A stretch of DNA of 64,000 bases from Phyllobacterium zundukense (GTDB lineage Bacteria; Pseudomonadota; Alphaproteobacteria; Rhizobiales; Rhizobiaceae): NCBI RefSeq assembly GCF_025452195.1, contig NZ_CP104971.1, forward strand, positions 124,001-188,000, given 5' to 3'. Below are positions 56,096-62,028 of this stretch, one piece after another; the first letter of the stretch is position 1; the number at the start of each line of letters is the position of its first letter. Position numbers and translations under genes: made by a program. Under the pieces are notes generated by a model, which searched no databases, was not told where the DNA came from, and saw only the letters and a program-made list of their open reading frames with translations.

Positions 56096-56425
56096 CTACG
56101 CCTCGCAGGTTTCGGCGCAGGTATCGACCGTTGGATCGCAGCGTCCCTGACAGCAGTCCTTCATAAGGAACTCGATCAAGCCGGAGAGGGCGGGATAGAC
56201 GGCGCTGTAAATGATCGAACGTGCTTCACGACGGGACTGGATCAATCCGGCGCGTTCGAGATGGCTGAGGTGGAAGGAAATCTTCGACGACGAGGCTCCC
56301 ATCGCTTCGCCGACTGCACCGGCTGGCATGCCGTCAGGTCCGGCCATGACAAGCAGACGGACGATGCGGAGCCGGGTTTCCTGGGAGAGCGACGCAAATG
56401 CATCGAGGGCTTGCAATTCGTTCAT
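56096..56425 (-). CDS. arsR: ArsR family arsenic-responsive repressor (copy 1)
   Basis: A 109-residue winged-helix repressor. The DNA-reading part is MGASSSKISFHLSHLERAGL. The C-terminus carries a cysteine cluster (KDCCQGRCDPTVDTCAETC) that would bind arsenite and release DNA. It lies 5 bp before the MFS exporter and reads away from a DUF6428-type gene; an inverted repeat in the gap is its likely operator. Confidence 0.93.
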   Translation of the reverse strand: MNELQALDAFASLSQETRLRIVRLLVMAGPDGMPAGAVGEAMGASSSKISFHLSHLERAGLIQSRREARSIIYSAVYPALSGLIEFLMKDCCQGRCDPTVDTCAETCEA

Positions 56426-56432
56426 AATTACC

Positions 56433-56454
56433 TCAATATCTCAAAAGATGTTGA
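56433..56454. promoter_or_regulatory. Candidate ArsR operator
   Basis: TCAATATCT CAAA AGATGTTGA is a 9-bp inverted repeat (8 of 9 matched) with a 4-base spacer. It lies in the 46-bp gap between arsR and the divergent DUF6428-type gene, where a repressor would block both. Confidence 0.65.
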
Positions 56455-56471
56455 AATGAGGATAGACCACC

Positions 56472-56996
56472 ATGGACGCCATGACCAGCCCATCTGTTGC
56501 TAATTTTTACGACGACGGTTCTCTTGGAGTTGTGCTTGCCGAACTGGAGCCGCACGCTGACAAATCCCTTGTCATCGAATACGGCGGGCGCTCCATCCAA
56601 TCCGGCTACCACGTCACGGAAGTCAAGGCAGGGTCCTTTGTCACGCTCGACTGCGGCGGCAATCCCGACCAATGGCACGAAACGATTCTCCAGGTTGAAG
56701 ACATTCCCTCGCAGGACGGTCGTGATTTCATGAAGGTTGAAAAATTTCGCAAGATTCTCGCCCAAGTAGCAACCAAGATCGAGCTTGAAGCTGAGGCCCG
56801 GTTAACCTTTGAGGTCGGCGTGCCGGGTACCCCGATGCAGGTGTTCGACGTACACGCGCTCGAGATCGACGGGGAACGTGCTCTCTTGCGCCTTGCTCCA
56901 CGTCCTGCCATCTGCAAGCCGAGGCATCGGGCAGCGCAGGTTGCCAACGCGGTCTCCTATTGTGCCTCACCGGCAAAACCTGGATGTTGTGCTTGA
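56472..56996 (+). CDS. DUF6428-type protein linked to arsenic genes
   Basis: A 174-residue protein that I place with the DUF6428 family found beside arsR in rhizobia. The N-terminus (VLAELEPHADKSLVIEYGGR) and the LDCGGNPDQWHETILQVEDI stretch are typical. The C-terminus ends in a cysteine-rich tail (SYCASPAKPGCCA), which could bind arsenite. The start could be the ATG at 56472 or the next at 56481. The role is not known; context makes it part of the arsenic response. Confidence 0.75.
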   Translation: MDAMTSPSVANFYDDGSLGVVLAELEPHADKSLVIEYGGRSIQSGYHVTEVKAGSFVTLDCGGNPDQWHETILQVEDIPSQDGRDFMKVEKFRKILAQVATKIELEAEARLTFEVGVPGTPMQVFDVHALEIDGERALLRLAPRPAICKPRHRAAQVANAVSYCASPAKPGCCA

Positions 56997-57034: not shown

Positions 57035-57787
57035 TTAGGCATGCTGCCAAACCTTGTAGGCTGAGATGACCAAAATTACCGCAAGCGCAGGAAGTAGGAG
57101 AGCCTCCGGAACGACGCCGAGCAATTGACCGCCAATAAACGTTCCGACAATGGATCCTGCGGCCATGATAAGGACGAACGTTTTGTTTTTGCCTAAGACG
57201 GTGAAACTCTGGTCTCGACTGTACCGGGTGAATCCCACAAGCATGGTCGGCAAGCTCACGGCGAGGGATAGGCTTCCAGCCAGTTTTATGTCCGCGCCAA
57301 ATAGCAGTACCAAAGTTGGGATGAGAAGCTCGCCACCTGCTACCCCCAATAGTGCCGCTACTATGCCGATGATGAAGCCACCTATGATCCCTGCGACAAG
57401 GAGGTACCCATCAGTCAACGCTGGACCATCTGAGACTGCACCATGACCAAGCACCAACACGGCCGCAATTGCGACGAGCATTAAGGCAATTACACGGTAG
57501 CCCGCGCCGAACCAGGCTCCGAGCAGGCTTCCCGCGAGGAGATTGAAGACAATCGGCCATTGTGCGGCGACATCTGTTATAGGGACGGACGTGGCCCGGA
57601 ACGGCAGCGCCGTCGCAACGACGACCAAGCTCATCGCCTTGTTGAGGATCACCGCTTCCAGAGCGCTAAACCGAAACATTCCGATCAGTAGCGGCAAGCG
57701 GAACTCCGCTCCACCAAGGCCGATAAGGCCCCCAAGCGCACCAATCAAGGCCCCTCCACCCGAGGCAGCACTCTTACTCTGTTCCAT
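57035..57787 (-). CDS. TauE/SafE family membrane protein
   Basis: A 250-residue membrane protein with about eight helices in two repeats, each starting with a glycine-rich segment (GALIGALGGLIGLGGAEFRL and GIVAALLGVAGGELLIPTLV). The family is usually linked to export or uptake of sulfite or other sulfur compounds. The ATG at 57787 follows GAGGG; a longer frame has no ribosome site. It lies between two arsenic units and is convergent with the DUF6428-type gene; a link to arsenic is unproven. Confidence 0.85.
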   Translation of the reverse strand: MEQSKSAASGGGALIGALGGLIGLGGAEFRLPLLIGMFRFSALEAVILNKAMSLVVVATALPFRATSVPITDVAAQWPIVFNLLAGSLLGAWFGAGYRVIALMLVAIAAVLVLGHGAVSDGPALTDGYLLVAGIIGGFIIGIVAALLGVAGGELLIPTLVLLFGADIKLAGSLSLAVSLPTMLVGFTRYSRDQSFTVLGKNKTFVLIMAAGSIVGTFIGGQLLGVVPEALLLPALAVILVISAYKVWQHA

Positions 57788-57981: not shown

Positions 57982-58581
57982 CTACGGATCCCTCAGCGGT
58001 TCGGGCTCTCCGTTCCGCCTGAACATGCGGCATCCGTCGCCCACTGCAGCTTCGTAAAGCGAATCACCGGGTTTGATGTTTGCCCACGTCGAGTAGACTT
58101 TGCCCACGGTGATATAGATCTCGCGACGTGCATCGGCGTGGGCAAACCGATCTACATAACGATCCGCCAAAGCCATGCAGTTGCGGAAATACGAGGGAGT
58201 GCCCATGACGCGGTTTTCAGACAGATGCGGATCCAGTACGCCGAGGATAAGTTCGGCGCAAACCTCGATCAGTGCTCCGGCGTAGGGGAGTTCCGGTATG
58301 AAGATTTCATGCTTGGCCGTAGCAAATCCCCGGGCATGGTTATTCGCCGGAATACATTTGACGAAGGGCCTGGGAACGCCGGCGTCGTCGAATATTCGGT
58401 GCGCGAGATCCTTGGCTCTCGTAAACGACATTTGGTTGTGAACAAGGCCGCGTCGGCTGCGCCATACCTCTTCGAGGCGCGCAGCGGGATCTTCCATCTC
58501 CTGCGGAGTTGCCACCAGCGATGCTGACTCCCGGAGTGTCTGCTCGTTGCAACCTTCATCTGAAGTGAAACCTCTTCCCAT
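57982..58581 (-). CDS. Unknown protein with ArsR-type operator (199 aa)
   Basis: I recognise no family. The protein is soluble and mixed alpha/beta, with a Glu/Arg-rich N-terminal half and an aromatic C-terminal half (YFRNCMALADRYVDRF, REIYITVGKVYSTWAN). The start at 58581 is chosen because the ATG lies in a 23-bp sequence that recurs, inverted, over the start of the divergent arsR gene (58801), implying shared control. Other in-frame ATGs upstream lack this and a ribosome site. It is probably an arsenic-regulated gene whose function is not known. Confidence 0.65.
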   Translation of the reverse strand: MGRGFTSDEGCNEQTLRESASLVATPQEMEDPAARLEEVWRSRRGLVHNQMSFTRAKDLAHRIFDDAGVPRPFVKCIPANNHARGFATAKHEIFIPELPYAGALIEVCAELILGVLDPHLSENRVMGTPSYFRNCMALADRYVDRFAHADARREIYITVGKVYSTWANIKPGDSLYEAAVGDGCRMFRRNGEPEPLRDP

Positions 58582-58600
58582 ATATCGAGATTTACCGATG
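58578..58600 (-). promoter_or_regulatory. Operator over the start of the unknown gene
   Basis: These 23 bases match 58782-58804 in inverted orientation at 21 of 23 positions (core ATATATCGxGATTTAxCGATG). The ATG of the leftward gene is inside it. Likely the binding site of the ArsR encoded at 58801. Confidence 0.65.
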
Positions 58601-58781
58601 GAAATGCTTGGTGTCAATGCCCACGCAGTCAGCGGCAGTTGTTGATGCGCCAATCAGACAACGGATGCTGCGACTGTTCACAGTGATCAACCGGAATTGT
58701 CCGGTGTAGTTTCAAGACCGCCGAGCCTTATTCCTACAAATTGATCGGATCGAAGAGAGAACCGTTGACAGAATTCCGAAA

Positions 58782-58804
58782 CATCGATAAATCCCGATAT
58801 ATGG
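58782..58804 (+). promoter_or_regulatory. Operator over the start of the second arsR
   Basis: Inverted counterpart of 58578-58600, two mismatches in 23, with the arsR ATG at 58801 inside it. Bound repressor would cover the ribosome start region as well as the promoter end. The two copies are about 200 bp apart, and a repressor could bridge them. Confidence 0.65.
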
Positions 58805-59157
58805 ACAAAAACGAGACAATAGAAGCCTTTTCGGCACTTGCGCAACCGACGCGAATGGACGCGTTCAAACTCATCGTCATGCACGAACCCGACGGTATCG
58901 CCGCAGGTGAGGTGTCCCGGATACTCGACGTTCCGCAGAACACGATGTCAACCCATCTCGCGATCATGACAAGGGCCGGGCTGATCTCTTCTGAGCGACA
59001 AAGCCGTTCCATCATCTATCGCGCCAATTTCGAAAACCTGCGCGAGGCGATCAATTTCCTCCTGAAGGATTGCTGCGCTGGCCATCCCGACATCTGTGCA
59101 CCTCTCATTGCCGACATCGTCCCTTGCTGTCCTCCCAAGGAGAATTTCAATGTCTGA
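58801..59157 (+). CDS. arsR: ArsR family arsenic-responsive repressor (copy 2)
   Basis: A 118-residue repressor of the second ars operon. The HTH is VPQNTMSTHLAIMTRAGLIS. The C-terminus has a cysteine pair (KDCCAGHPDICAPL) and a second (VPCCPPKE) that are likely metalloid ligands. The start is the ATG at 58801, inside the conserved operator; an in-frame start 20 codons upstream has no such support. Its stop overlaps the next gene by 8 bp. Confidence 0.93.
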   Translation: MDKNETIEAFSALAQPTRMDAFKLIVMHEPDGIAAGEVSRILDVPQNTMSTHLAIMTRAGLISSERQSRSIIYRANFENLREAINFLLKDCCAGHPDICAPLIADIVPCCPPKENFNV

Positions 59158-60082
59158 CCGCGTCTACAACGTCCTCTTTCTTTGCACCGGGAATTCAGCC
59201 CGGTCTATTCTGGCTGAATCCATCCTCAATGCCGAAGGTAAGGGTCGCTTCCAGGCATTTTCCGCAGGAAGTCAGCCGAAAGGTGAGGTTAATCCTCTCG
59301 CGCTTAAAGTCCTTGCGGCGCTGGGATACCCCACGGAAGGATTCCGCTCCAAGAGCTGGGACGAGTTTGCGGTTGAAGGCGCACCCCAGATGGATTTCAT
59401 CTTTACCGTCTGTGACAGCGCGGCAGGAGAAGCGTGCCCGATTTGGCCTGGCCATCCCATGACGGCTCATTGGGGTATCGAAGACCCCGCAGCCGTCGAG
59501 GGCGCGGACATCGAAAAGGAAAGGGCGTTCTCGCTGGCCGCCCGCTACATGAAGAACAGGATCATGGCATTCCTCAACCTTCGCCATGATGCCGTGGACC
59601 AACTGTGGTTGACCACAAAGCTCCAGGCGATCGGCCGACGTGAGGGACTGGAACCCGAGGAAATCGACAATGTCGATAGCGGACTTGAATCGGCTTTGCG
59701 GTCTGCCGATCTTCCAACGGAGGATCTCGGTCAGTCGAGCGGCAAGTTCTTCCGTTTTTCAGACCGCGAAGGCAAACCCGTCGGATACGGCGGCGTCGAG
59801 TTCTACGGAAAGGATGCGCTCCTGCGCTCGATCGCAGTGCCGGCCGAGGCGCAAAAGCACGGACACGGCAGCGCCATCACACGGCTGTTGCTCCGCTATG
59901 CCGACATTCAGGGTGCGGAGGCAGGATATCTTCTGACGACCGACGCTGCCCCGTTCTTCGGCAAGCTGGGCTTTCGCCCGGTCGAGCGGACGGCCGTACC
60001 GGATGCGATCCTGTCTACACCACAAGCATCGGGCCTTTGCCCGTCGACGGCGTCAATCTTGACGCGTTCGGTTTCCATCTAA
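59150..60082 (+). CDS. Fused arsenate reductase / ArsN2 acetyltransferase
   Basis: A 310-residue fusion. The N-terminal domain (about 1-145) is a low-molecular-weight-phosphatase-type arsenate reductase, with the P-loop Cys12 in FLCTGNSARSILAE and the catalytic CDSAAGEACPIWPGHPMTAH. The C-terminal part (about 185-290) is a GNAT fold of the ArsN2 type (LLRSIAVPAEAQKHGHGSAI, PFFGKLGFRPVERT). The first reduces arsenate to arsenite. The second's target in vivo is unsure. AAGGAG lies seven bases before the ATG, inside the arsR end. Confidence 0.9.
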   Translation: MSDRVYNVLFLCTGNSARSILAESILNAEGKGRFQAFSAGSQPKGEVNPLALKVLAALGYPTEGFRSKSWDEFAVEGAPQMDFIFTVCDSAAGEACPIWPGHPMTAHWGIEDPAAVEGADIEKERAFSLAARYMKNRIMAFLNLRHDAVDQLWLTTKLQAIGRREGLEPEEIDNVDSGLESALRSADLPTEDLGQSSGKFFRFSDREGKPVGYGGVEFYGKDALLRSIAVPAEAQKHGHGSAITRLLLRYADIQGAEAGYLLTTDAAPFFGKLGFRPVERTAVPDAILSTPQASGLCPSTASILTRSVSI

Positions 60083-60091
60083 GGAAAAACC

Positions 60092-60202
60092 ATGTCCGTT
60101 TTGGAACATTATCTCGGGCTCGGCGGAGCCAGCGTCGTCGGTATCGCACTCGGCTCCGCCGAAATTAGCTGCAATCTACCGAAGGTGGGTCAATGGCCGT
60201 GA
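60092..60202 (+). CDS. Possible small protein before aqpS (36 aa)
   Basis: AAGGA lies six bases before the ATG, and the frame runs to a stop inside the aqpS start. The peptide reads MSVLEHYLGLGGASVVGIAL then GSAEISCNLPKVGQWP. It has a Gly-rich hydrophobic stretch but no clear helix. It could be a leader for translational coupling to aqpS, or chance. Confidence 0.3.
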   Translation: MSVLEHYLGLGGASVVGIALGSAEISCNLPKVGQWP

Positions 60203-60900
60203 CACCGGATCTGGCCCGTCGCCTCGCGGCAGAAGCGCTCGGCACGGCGATGCTCGTGGCCACCGTCGTCGGTTCCGGGATCATGGCCGACCGACTGACC
60301 AACGATGTGGCGCTTGCCCTGCTCGGGAATACCATCCCCACTGGCGCGATCCTGGTGGTACTGATCACCATTCTGGGACCAATTTCAGGCGCACACTTCA
60401 ATCCGGCAGTGACGATGGTCTTCGCACTTCGCAGGGAGATCGAGGCGAATGCAGCGCTCTTCTACATCGTGGCGCAGATCGCGGGCGGCATAGCCGGATC
60501 GCTCATAGCCCACGCGATGTTCGAGCTTCCAATCATCGAACTTTCGGCGACAGTTCGCACCGGGACGGGACAGTGGATTGCGGAAGCGGTAGCGGCCTTC
60601 GGTCTCGTCTTTACTATCCTGGCCGGCCTTCGCTTTCGGCCGGATGCAATTCCCTGGCTGGTCGGGCTCTACATTACCGCCGCCTACTGGTTCACCGCCT
60701 CGACATCGTTTGCCAATCCAGCCGTCGCGATCGCGCGAGCGTTGTCGAACACCTTCGCAGGCATCCGTCCCGCCGACTTACCCGGCTTTATCATCGCCGA
60801 GGTCCTCGGCGCATTGCTGGCAATGGCGCTGGCCAGTTGGATGCTGTCGGAACAGAATCCCGCGCCCCAAGCACTTAGCAAACTGAAAGGTGCTGAATGA
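60193..60900 (+). CDS. aqpS: Aquaglyceroporin-type channel AqpS
   Basis: A 235-residue MIP-family channel with six helices. The two half-helix motifs are HFNPAVT and FANPAVAIAR. The usual arginine straight after the second NPA is valine, as in AqpS of Sinorhizobium, whose wider pore lets out arsenite made by ArsC. AAGGTGGG precedes the ATG. It overlaps arsC by 4 bp (ATGA). This gene replaces an arsB pump in the operon. Confidence 0.93.
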   Translation: MAVTPDLARRLAAEALGTAMLVATVVGSGIMADRLTNDVALALLGNTIPTGAILVVLITILGPISGAHFNPAVTMVFALRREIEANAALFYIVAQIAGGIAGSLIAHAMFELPIIELSATVRTGTGQWIAEAVAAFGLVFTILAGLRFRPDAIPWLVGLYITAAYWFTASTSFANPAVAIARALSNTFAGIRPADLPGFIIAEVLGALLAMALASWMLSEQNPAPQALSKLKGAE

Positions 60901-61325
60901 CCATGAACGTTACCATCTACCACAATCCGTCGTGCGGCACGTCACGCAACACGCTGGCGCTGATCCGCAATGCCGGCATCGAGCCGACAATCATCGAATA
61001 CCTGAAAACGCCCCCGAGCCGTCAGGAGCTGAAGGACCTGATCCAGAAAGCCGGGCTGACAGTTCGCGAAGCCATTCGCGAAAAAGGCACGCCTTACGCC
61101 GAACTCGGCCTGGATAACCCGTCATTGACCGACGAAGAGTTGCTGGACGCCATGGAGACACATCCAATCCTCATCAACCGTCCCTTTGTCGTCACCGAAA
61201 AAGGCGTCCGTTTAAGCCGGCCTTCGGAGCTGGTTCTCGATATTCTGCCTGCACCGCAACAAGGAGCGTTCGCCAAGGAAGACGGTGAGCTCGTCATCGA
61301 CGCCAAAGGAAAGCGTGTTGTCTGA
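60897..61325 (+). CDS. arsC: Arsenate reductase ArsC, glutaredoxin type
   Basis: A 142-residue cytoplasmic enzyme that reduces arsenate with glutaredoxin/glutathione. The active-site Cys13 is in [17 protein letters not shown], and the [20 protein letters not shown] stretch contains the arsenate-binding arginines. The ATG overlaps the aqpS stop. It provides a second reductase beside the fused one. Confidence 0.96.
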
Positions 61326-62028
61326 TCTGCCCAATGCAATCCCCGATGCGCTGGAGGTGCCGGAACATTCGAAGCTTTCCGGACCACGTTCCACGCATCG
61401 TCCGCGTATCCTTCTGCTCTACGGCTCGTTGCGGAAAGTCTCCTATAGCCGGCTGCTGACCCTAGAGGCGGCGCGGCTGCTGGAGCATTTCGGGGCGGAG
61501 GCTCGCATCTACGATCCATCCGGGTTGCCGCTTCCGGACGACGCACCGATTGACCATTCCAAGGTGCAGGAACTGCGCGAGCTTTCTCTGTGGTCAGAGG
61601 GCCAAGTCTGGACCAGTCCCGAACGCCATGGGGCGATGACTGGCGTCATGAAGTCCCAAATCGATTGGATACCGCTCGCGATGGGTTCGATCCGGCCCAC
61701 ACAGGGGCGTACGCTTGCCGTCATGCAGGTGTCTGGCGGTTCGCAATCCTTCAACGCGGTGAACCAGATGCGGGTGCTCGGGCGCTGGATGCGTATGATC
61801 ACCATCCCGAACCAGTCCTCGGTGGCGAAAGCCTATCAGGAATTCGACGAGCACGGACGTATGAGACCTTCGGCTTATTACGACCGGGTCGTTGACGTGA
61901 TGGAGGAGTTGGTCAAGTTCACCTTGCTGACGCGGGATGTCTCCGGTTATCTCACCGACAGGTACAGTGAACGCAAAGAGAGTGCAGCGGAACTGGAGAA
62001 ACGCGTCAATCTCAAAAGTGCCGTTTAA
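61315..62028 (+). CDS. arsH: ArsH, NADPH-dependent FMN reductase
   Basis: A 237-residue flavoprotein that oxidises trivalent organoarsenicals and is common in rhizobial ars operons. The flavin site is [18 protein letters not shown], followed by [19 protein letters not shown] and [20 protein letters not shown]. The start is a GTG at 61315 (or TTG at 61318), behind AAAGGA and overlapping the arsC stop. It is the last gene of this operon. Confidence 0.93.

Follow-up and report, generated by a model that had tools for sequence, protein, structure and literature searches.

A putative ArsR operator abutting predicted leaderless starts of two divergent genes in a Phyllobacterium ars locus

In the betaproteobacterium Cupriavidus metallidurans CH34, transcription of arsR has been mapped to begin at a distance of 0 bp from the gene (PMC9045368), and the mRNA is called leaderless (PMC7563307). 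This resembles the start that we propose for arsR1 of Phyllobacterium zundukense, and a leaderless arsR is thus not new in itself; the likeness is one of description, and the consulted text of the two reports describes no operator at the start codon. The Mesorhizobium nreAXY operon, leaderless by 5′-RACE, is likewise a metal-response operon whose first gene encodes its own repressor and whose promoter contains the operator, but NreA belongs to the CsoR/RcnR family and its operator lies at -30 to -12, in the spacer (PMC12724321). The acuR-acuI-dddL operon of Rhodobacter sphaeroides is also leaderless and autorepressed with an inverted repeat over its promoter, whereas it involves a TetR-family regulator, acrylate and the dyad TAATAGAC-n6-GTCTATTA (PMC3017554). 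Among ArsR proteins, that of Synechocystis is described as using short dyads in the promoter-operator, ATCAA-N6-TTGAT, but these are two direct repeats of a 17-bp site with other bases than ours (PMC4585019). Leaderless starts number 171 in S. meliloti (PMC3616915), and the promoters of O. tritici were predicted together with RBSs (PMC2440759).

A rhizobial parallel is Agrobacterium tumefaciens 5A, in which arsR1 is autoregulated, mutation of arsR1 derepresses the phn1 locus, and control by ArsR1 extends to phn1 and to pst/pho genes that adjoin ars genes (PMC7965956). Most of the motifs reported there are 100-150 nt or more upstream, and the motifs depart from the 12-2-12 repeat form named in that report, whereas the dyad described below has the form 6-8-6 and abuts the ATG. 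This comparison is by description, the main text of PMC7965956 being without the words 'leaderless' and 'start codon'. Arsenic islands with ars, pst and phn operons also hold ars, pst and phnCDE genes close together as here, but they are defined around aioBA, and the consulted text describes no shared ArsR operator (PMC3834237).

The window analysed here is a stretch of 64,000 nt of P. zundukense (C3:124001-188000 of a genome of 6,413,776 bases in five contigs). The genes that concern us are the following:

56096-56425, minus strand: second arsR, divergent from the DUF6428 gene
56472-56996, plus strand: DUF6428 gene, divergent from the second arsR
57035..57787, minus strand: TauE/SafE-family permease gene (PF01925; search query with two extra N-terminal codons)
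57982..58581, minus strand: gene of a 199-aa protein, proposed ArsR target, promoter module upstream
58801..59157, plus strand: arsR1, 118 aa, ArsR/SmtB repressor, leaderless start proposed
59150..60082, plus strand: ars operon, LMW-type arsenate reductase domain fused to ArsN2 acetyltransferase (domain matches)
60193..60900, plus strand: ars operon, MIP-family aquaglyceroporin, aqpS-like (PF00230)
60897..61325, plus strand: ars operon, arsC of the glutaredoxin type (TIGR00014 over cut-off)
61285..62028, plus strand: ars operon, arsH (TIGR02690 over cut-off)

The arsR1 product has the winged helix-turn-helix of the ArsR/SmtB family, with 44.5 bits against HTH_20 (cut-off 27) and 59.8 against NF033788 (cut-off 55); against HTH_5 it scores 20.8, under the cut-off of 22. 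Its nearest solved structure is 6j05, named Transcriptional regulator ArsR, and the CC of its C-terminal CC...C aligns with the CC of 6j05, the spacing to the third Cys being off by one. The arsenate reductase domain and ArsN2 share a single ORF here, and some relatives' records annotate ArsN2 alone. At 60092-60202 lies a 36-codon ORF. By eye, its start is like that of a 353-aa ORF which P. trifolii has at the same place (L085 5413-6474) and which we took for ACR3 efflux; in the window the aquaglyceroporin gene follows instead. Between the second arsR and the DUF6428 gene, a different dyad, TCAATATCT-CAAA-AGATGTTGA, can be seen by eye at 56433-56454 (arms 8/9), and the inverted-repeat finder returned no pairs in that gap.

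A sequence-only reading of this DNA had pointed to a 23-nt inverted repeat holding the start codons of arsR1 and the 199-aa gene. Both observations are borne out: 58578-58600 and 58782-58804 are complementary at 21/23 positions with 181 nt between the arms, and the arms contain the ATG of arsR (58801-58803, plus strand) and that of the 199-aa ORF (58579-58581, minus strand). The 23-mer is best divided into a dyad at -20..-1, centred at -10.5, followed by ATGG. Ahead of both copies stands a TTGACA at -36..-31, which was absent from the earlier reading. The elements are:

58782..58804, plus strand: putative ArsR operator copy 1, dyad up to -1 of arsR1 plus ATGG, 5/6 outer pairs complementary
58765..58770, plus strand: TTGACA, -35 element of arsR1
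58578..58600, minus strand: putative ArsR operator copy 2, dyad up to -1 of the 199-aa gene plus ATGG, 4/6 outer pairs complementary
58612..58617, minus strand: TTGACA, -35 element of the 199-aa gene

The arsR1 and 199-aa promoters are identical at 6/6 positions of the -35 element, 17/19 from -19 to -1 and 4/4 of ATGG (21/23 for dyad plus ATGG), and near chance elsewhere, with 2/11 in the spacer (-30..-20) and 4/24 upstream (-60..-37). The likeness is therefore limited to the parts that would be read by RNA polymerase, a repressor and the ribosome, and the diverged spacer and upstream sequences argue that the two promoters are no recent copy of one another. A consensus for rhizobial promoters is CTTGAC-N17-CTATAT, words that are absent from the main text of PMC3616915. 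The -10 region is weak by this measure, both promoters agreeing with the consensus at 9/12 positions at a spacing of 17 and at 8-9/12 at other spacings, and an E. coli-type promoter scan gave no site.

The motif does recur in related ars loci, the same layout lying ahead of 33/33 arsR homologues chosen by protein similarity. These are the closest homologues, with at least 55% identity, and comprise 30 best-match loci (from 199 family genomes searched and 124 matched, the window included) and three plasmid records. In all 33 the ATG abuts the dyad; a dyad centre at -10.5 gives a mean outer-arm pairing of 0.90, and the next best centre 0.57. TTGAC starts at -36..-34 in 30/33 and is missing in 3/33, and no SD-like 4-mer was found upstream of arsR in any of the 33. 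The pair -15/-6 is C-G in 18 homologues, G-C in 6, T-A in 2 and unpaired in 7, and the pair -18/-3 is A-T in 28, G-C in 4 and unpaired in 1. Both pairs covary beyond 2000 shuffles; because the shuffles ignore descent, this covariation is supportive and not proof. The arsR promoters thus carry an imperfect dyad of the form 6-8-6, as expected of an ArsR-type operator, and their spacing would put +1 at the ATG, with no SD, as in a leaderless autorepressed promoter of the nreA and acuR kind. In our view, each copy in the window is most likely an ArsR operator on a leaderless promoter.

Scans by pattern extended this picture. An ATCC-type pattern gave 39 sites in 37/199 genomes (none for the backwards control), and all 30 sites examined start ORFs whose first 45 residues were judged ArsR-like by reading. 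In five further named records (S. meliloti, two Agrobacterium, Microvirga and Sphingomonas) the dyad is flush with the ATG in 5/5 with 4-6/6 outer pairs; TTGAC is present in 2/5, and the other three, S. meliloti included, have TTGC. A further pattern scan gave 32 sites in 28/297 genomes, against 3 sites for the backwards control. Among the 28 loci of that scan (L022-L049), 15 are exact ArsR-like starts, L024, L031, L032, L033 and L037 lie at or beside an ArsR-like gene with a shifted or opposite start, and 8/28 have no ArsR-like gene in the frame read. A link between the operator half-site and the ArsR recognition helix was dropped, being confounded by descent, and the 66-row set used for it, partly picked by pattern and with a few outliers, is left out of the counts.

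The dyad might be bound by another regulator, such as the second ArsR or another ArsR-type protein of the genome. The genome has 21 HTH_5 matches and the second ArsR is encoded 2.4 kb away. We hold this to be improbable, since the dyad accompanies arsR1-type genes from genome to genome, which is how an autoregulatory site would behave, and the sequence upstream of the second arsR differs.

We combined the two copies into a pattern of 20 fixed bases and searched the whole genome with it, allowing up to 3 mismatches. Four matches were obtained, at arsR1, its 90% paralogue, the 199-aa gene and phnC; the backwards pattern gave none. The two matches beyond the original pair likewise end on gene-start ATGs. 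The arsR paralogue is part of a sister ars locus (L017, C5:2408000-2418000) of the largest contig, where the gene order is similar and the 199-aa and TauE-type genes are missing. The remaining site is:

C3:190944-190965 (window coordinate 66944-66965, 2.9 kb past the window): at the ATG of phnC, dyad imperfect like the other two, 3/6 outer pairs

By ORF reading, phnC heads a phnC-D-E-E operon; no TTGACA stands at the usual distance. A general role of phnC as a target in the family was rejected, as 29 of 30 phnC loci scanned from the 199 genomes are without a site at up to 4 mismatches, only the phnC of this genome having one, and an Ensifer phnC adjoining ars and pst genes has no dyad of the form sought. 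In Phyllobacterium, 18/20 genomes hold 27 sites, which by reading fall at arsR (23, one truncated and one from the other strand), the 199-aa gene (2) and phnC (2). The phnC target would thus be a Phyllobacterium case, found here in this genome and in G310, which we take as P. trifolii because its sequence here matches L085.

The earlier suggestion that a repressor covers the start codons is recast by these data. The dyad would span the -10 region to the transcription start, with the ATG directly behind it at +1. Contact between the sites and the start codons is explained by transcripts that probably lack a leader, and no special start-codon repression is needed. Although the ATG does lie inside each repeat, a mechanism in which ArsR, or an mRNA form of the dyad, chiefly hinders translation at the AUG is very unlikely: the dyad stops at -1, the constant spacing of the -35 elements speaks for transcription, transcription from the AUG would leave the dyad outside the mRNA, and P. 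trifolii retains the phnC site even though the ATG there is not in the reading frame of phnC.

The 199-aa protein belongs to no known family found: no match was obtained in Pfam, NCBIfam, PADLOC or among PDB sequences, and the best PHROGs match had an E-value of 0.29. A sequence search found nine homologous proteins, and a profile search, which scored 7,997 candidates, found 30; those named by organism are all from Phyllobacterium. At the gene level, 8/20 genomes of the genus matched, one by fragments only, and 3/297 in the family search, one of these a weak match in another genus (E 1.4e-4). A first structure model, from 7 sequences, had a pLDDT of 40 and was dropped; a second gave only weak matches, many of them to zincin peptidases, below the tool's 'common' Z. 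The protein was not filed as a zincin or ImmA-IrrE-like metallopeptidase, as HExxH is absent from the alignment of 7 by reading. A degenerate homologue with several stops lies at C4:913634-914254 (L012, L019) and genome G311 has several copies and fragments, which suggests that the family multiplies and decays in the genus.

The P. trifolii homologue is 86% identical and has the same gene order and module, including the TauE/SafE-family gene that in the window lies 194 nt downstream in the same direction and may be co-transcribed. Between the window and P. trifolii the operators agree at 18/20 and 19/20 positions and the -35 elements at 6/6 and 6/6, and the sequence between at 79/163 columns. 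The other homologue loci examined are without the site, so that the arsenic tie belongs to the locus and not to the protein family. The start of the 199-aa ORF itself is less sure: codons 1-29 count 10 non-synonymous and 5 synonymous codons, a fast-evolving stretch with little coding signature and no indel between the window and P. trifolii, these codons are largely missing in 5/7 aligned rows, and the protein database has a 177-aa version (P0001).

That module in two species only and the weak coding signal of codons 1-29 would suit a relic, in which the left copy is a promoter fragment left by an old inverted duplication and has no present function for the 199-aa gene. We think this improbable as well, because only the functional parts match between the copies and P. 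trifolii conserves these same parts within surroundings that have diverged. A place for the 199-aa gene in the ArsR regulon, put forward by the sequence-only reading, stands as a reading of sequence, resting on the promoter/operator module that it shares with arsR and that P. trifolii has kept, and membership of the regulon is the best reading of this gene.

Looping between the two sites, also proposed earlier, fared worse. In this genome the centres are 199 bp apart, which is close to a whole number of turns (18.95 at 10.5 bp), as would suit ArsR bridging both sites to co-repress the divergent promoters. In P. trifolii, the second of the two species compared, the distance is 215 bp or 20.48 turns, a change of 16 bp, and in the genus scan close site pairs occur only in this genome and G310. 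It is highly improbable that repression depends on such a bridge.

Local ArsR operators on compact leaderless promoters at both divergent genes remain the best explanation, which we hold with good confidence. From the anatomy, conservation and covariation seen in the sequences we infer ArsR binding, a leaderless start and a response to arsenite. ArsR1, and perhaps also its 90% paralogue on contig C5, would act as repressor at both 23-bp copies, each promoter consisting of a -35 TTGACA, an operator dyad across the -10 region and a transcript starting at the AUG. When arsenite is absent, one ArsR dimer per dyad would shut out RNA polymerase at both divergent promoters. Arsenite would free ArsR and so turn on the rightward arsR-arsC/arsN2-aqpS-arsC-arsH genes and the leftward 199-aa gene, perhaps with the TauE-type permease gene, and the further copy at phnC would place a phosphonate-type ABC transporter in the same regulon. 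On balance, we lean slightly towards the view that in Phyllobacterium this operator has acquired two new targets, namely phnCDE and a protein centred on the genus that has no known family and would add a new component to the response to arsenic.

In the open-access literature, searched by titles and abstract starts, we found no leaderless rhizobial arsR and no operator at its ATG, nor, in the open-access literature, a position-locked ArsR operator at leaderless Rhizobiaceae starts or its use on the 199-aa gene or phnC. The position-locked operator and its new targets therefore appear to be new. The ArsR1 regulon of A. tumefaciens 5A was inferred from expression, the motifs as reported lying mostly off promoters (PMC7965956). 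An operator locked in position would let ArsR targets be read from sequence, and it predicts leaderless starts; it also names a candidate arsenic-response protein, the 199-aa protein, and the phnCDE operon for testing. A rare protein thus looks to be linked to arsenic control through a layout that seems common to the arsR genes of many rhizobia.
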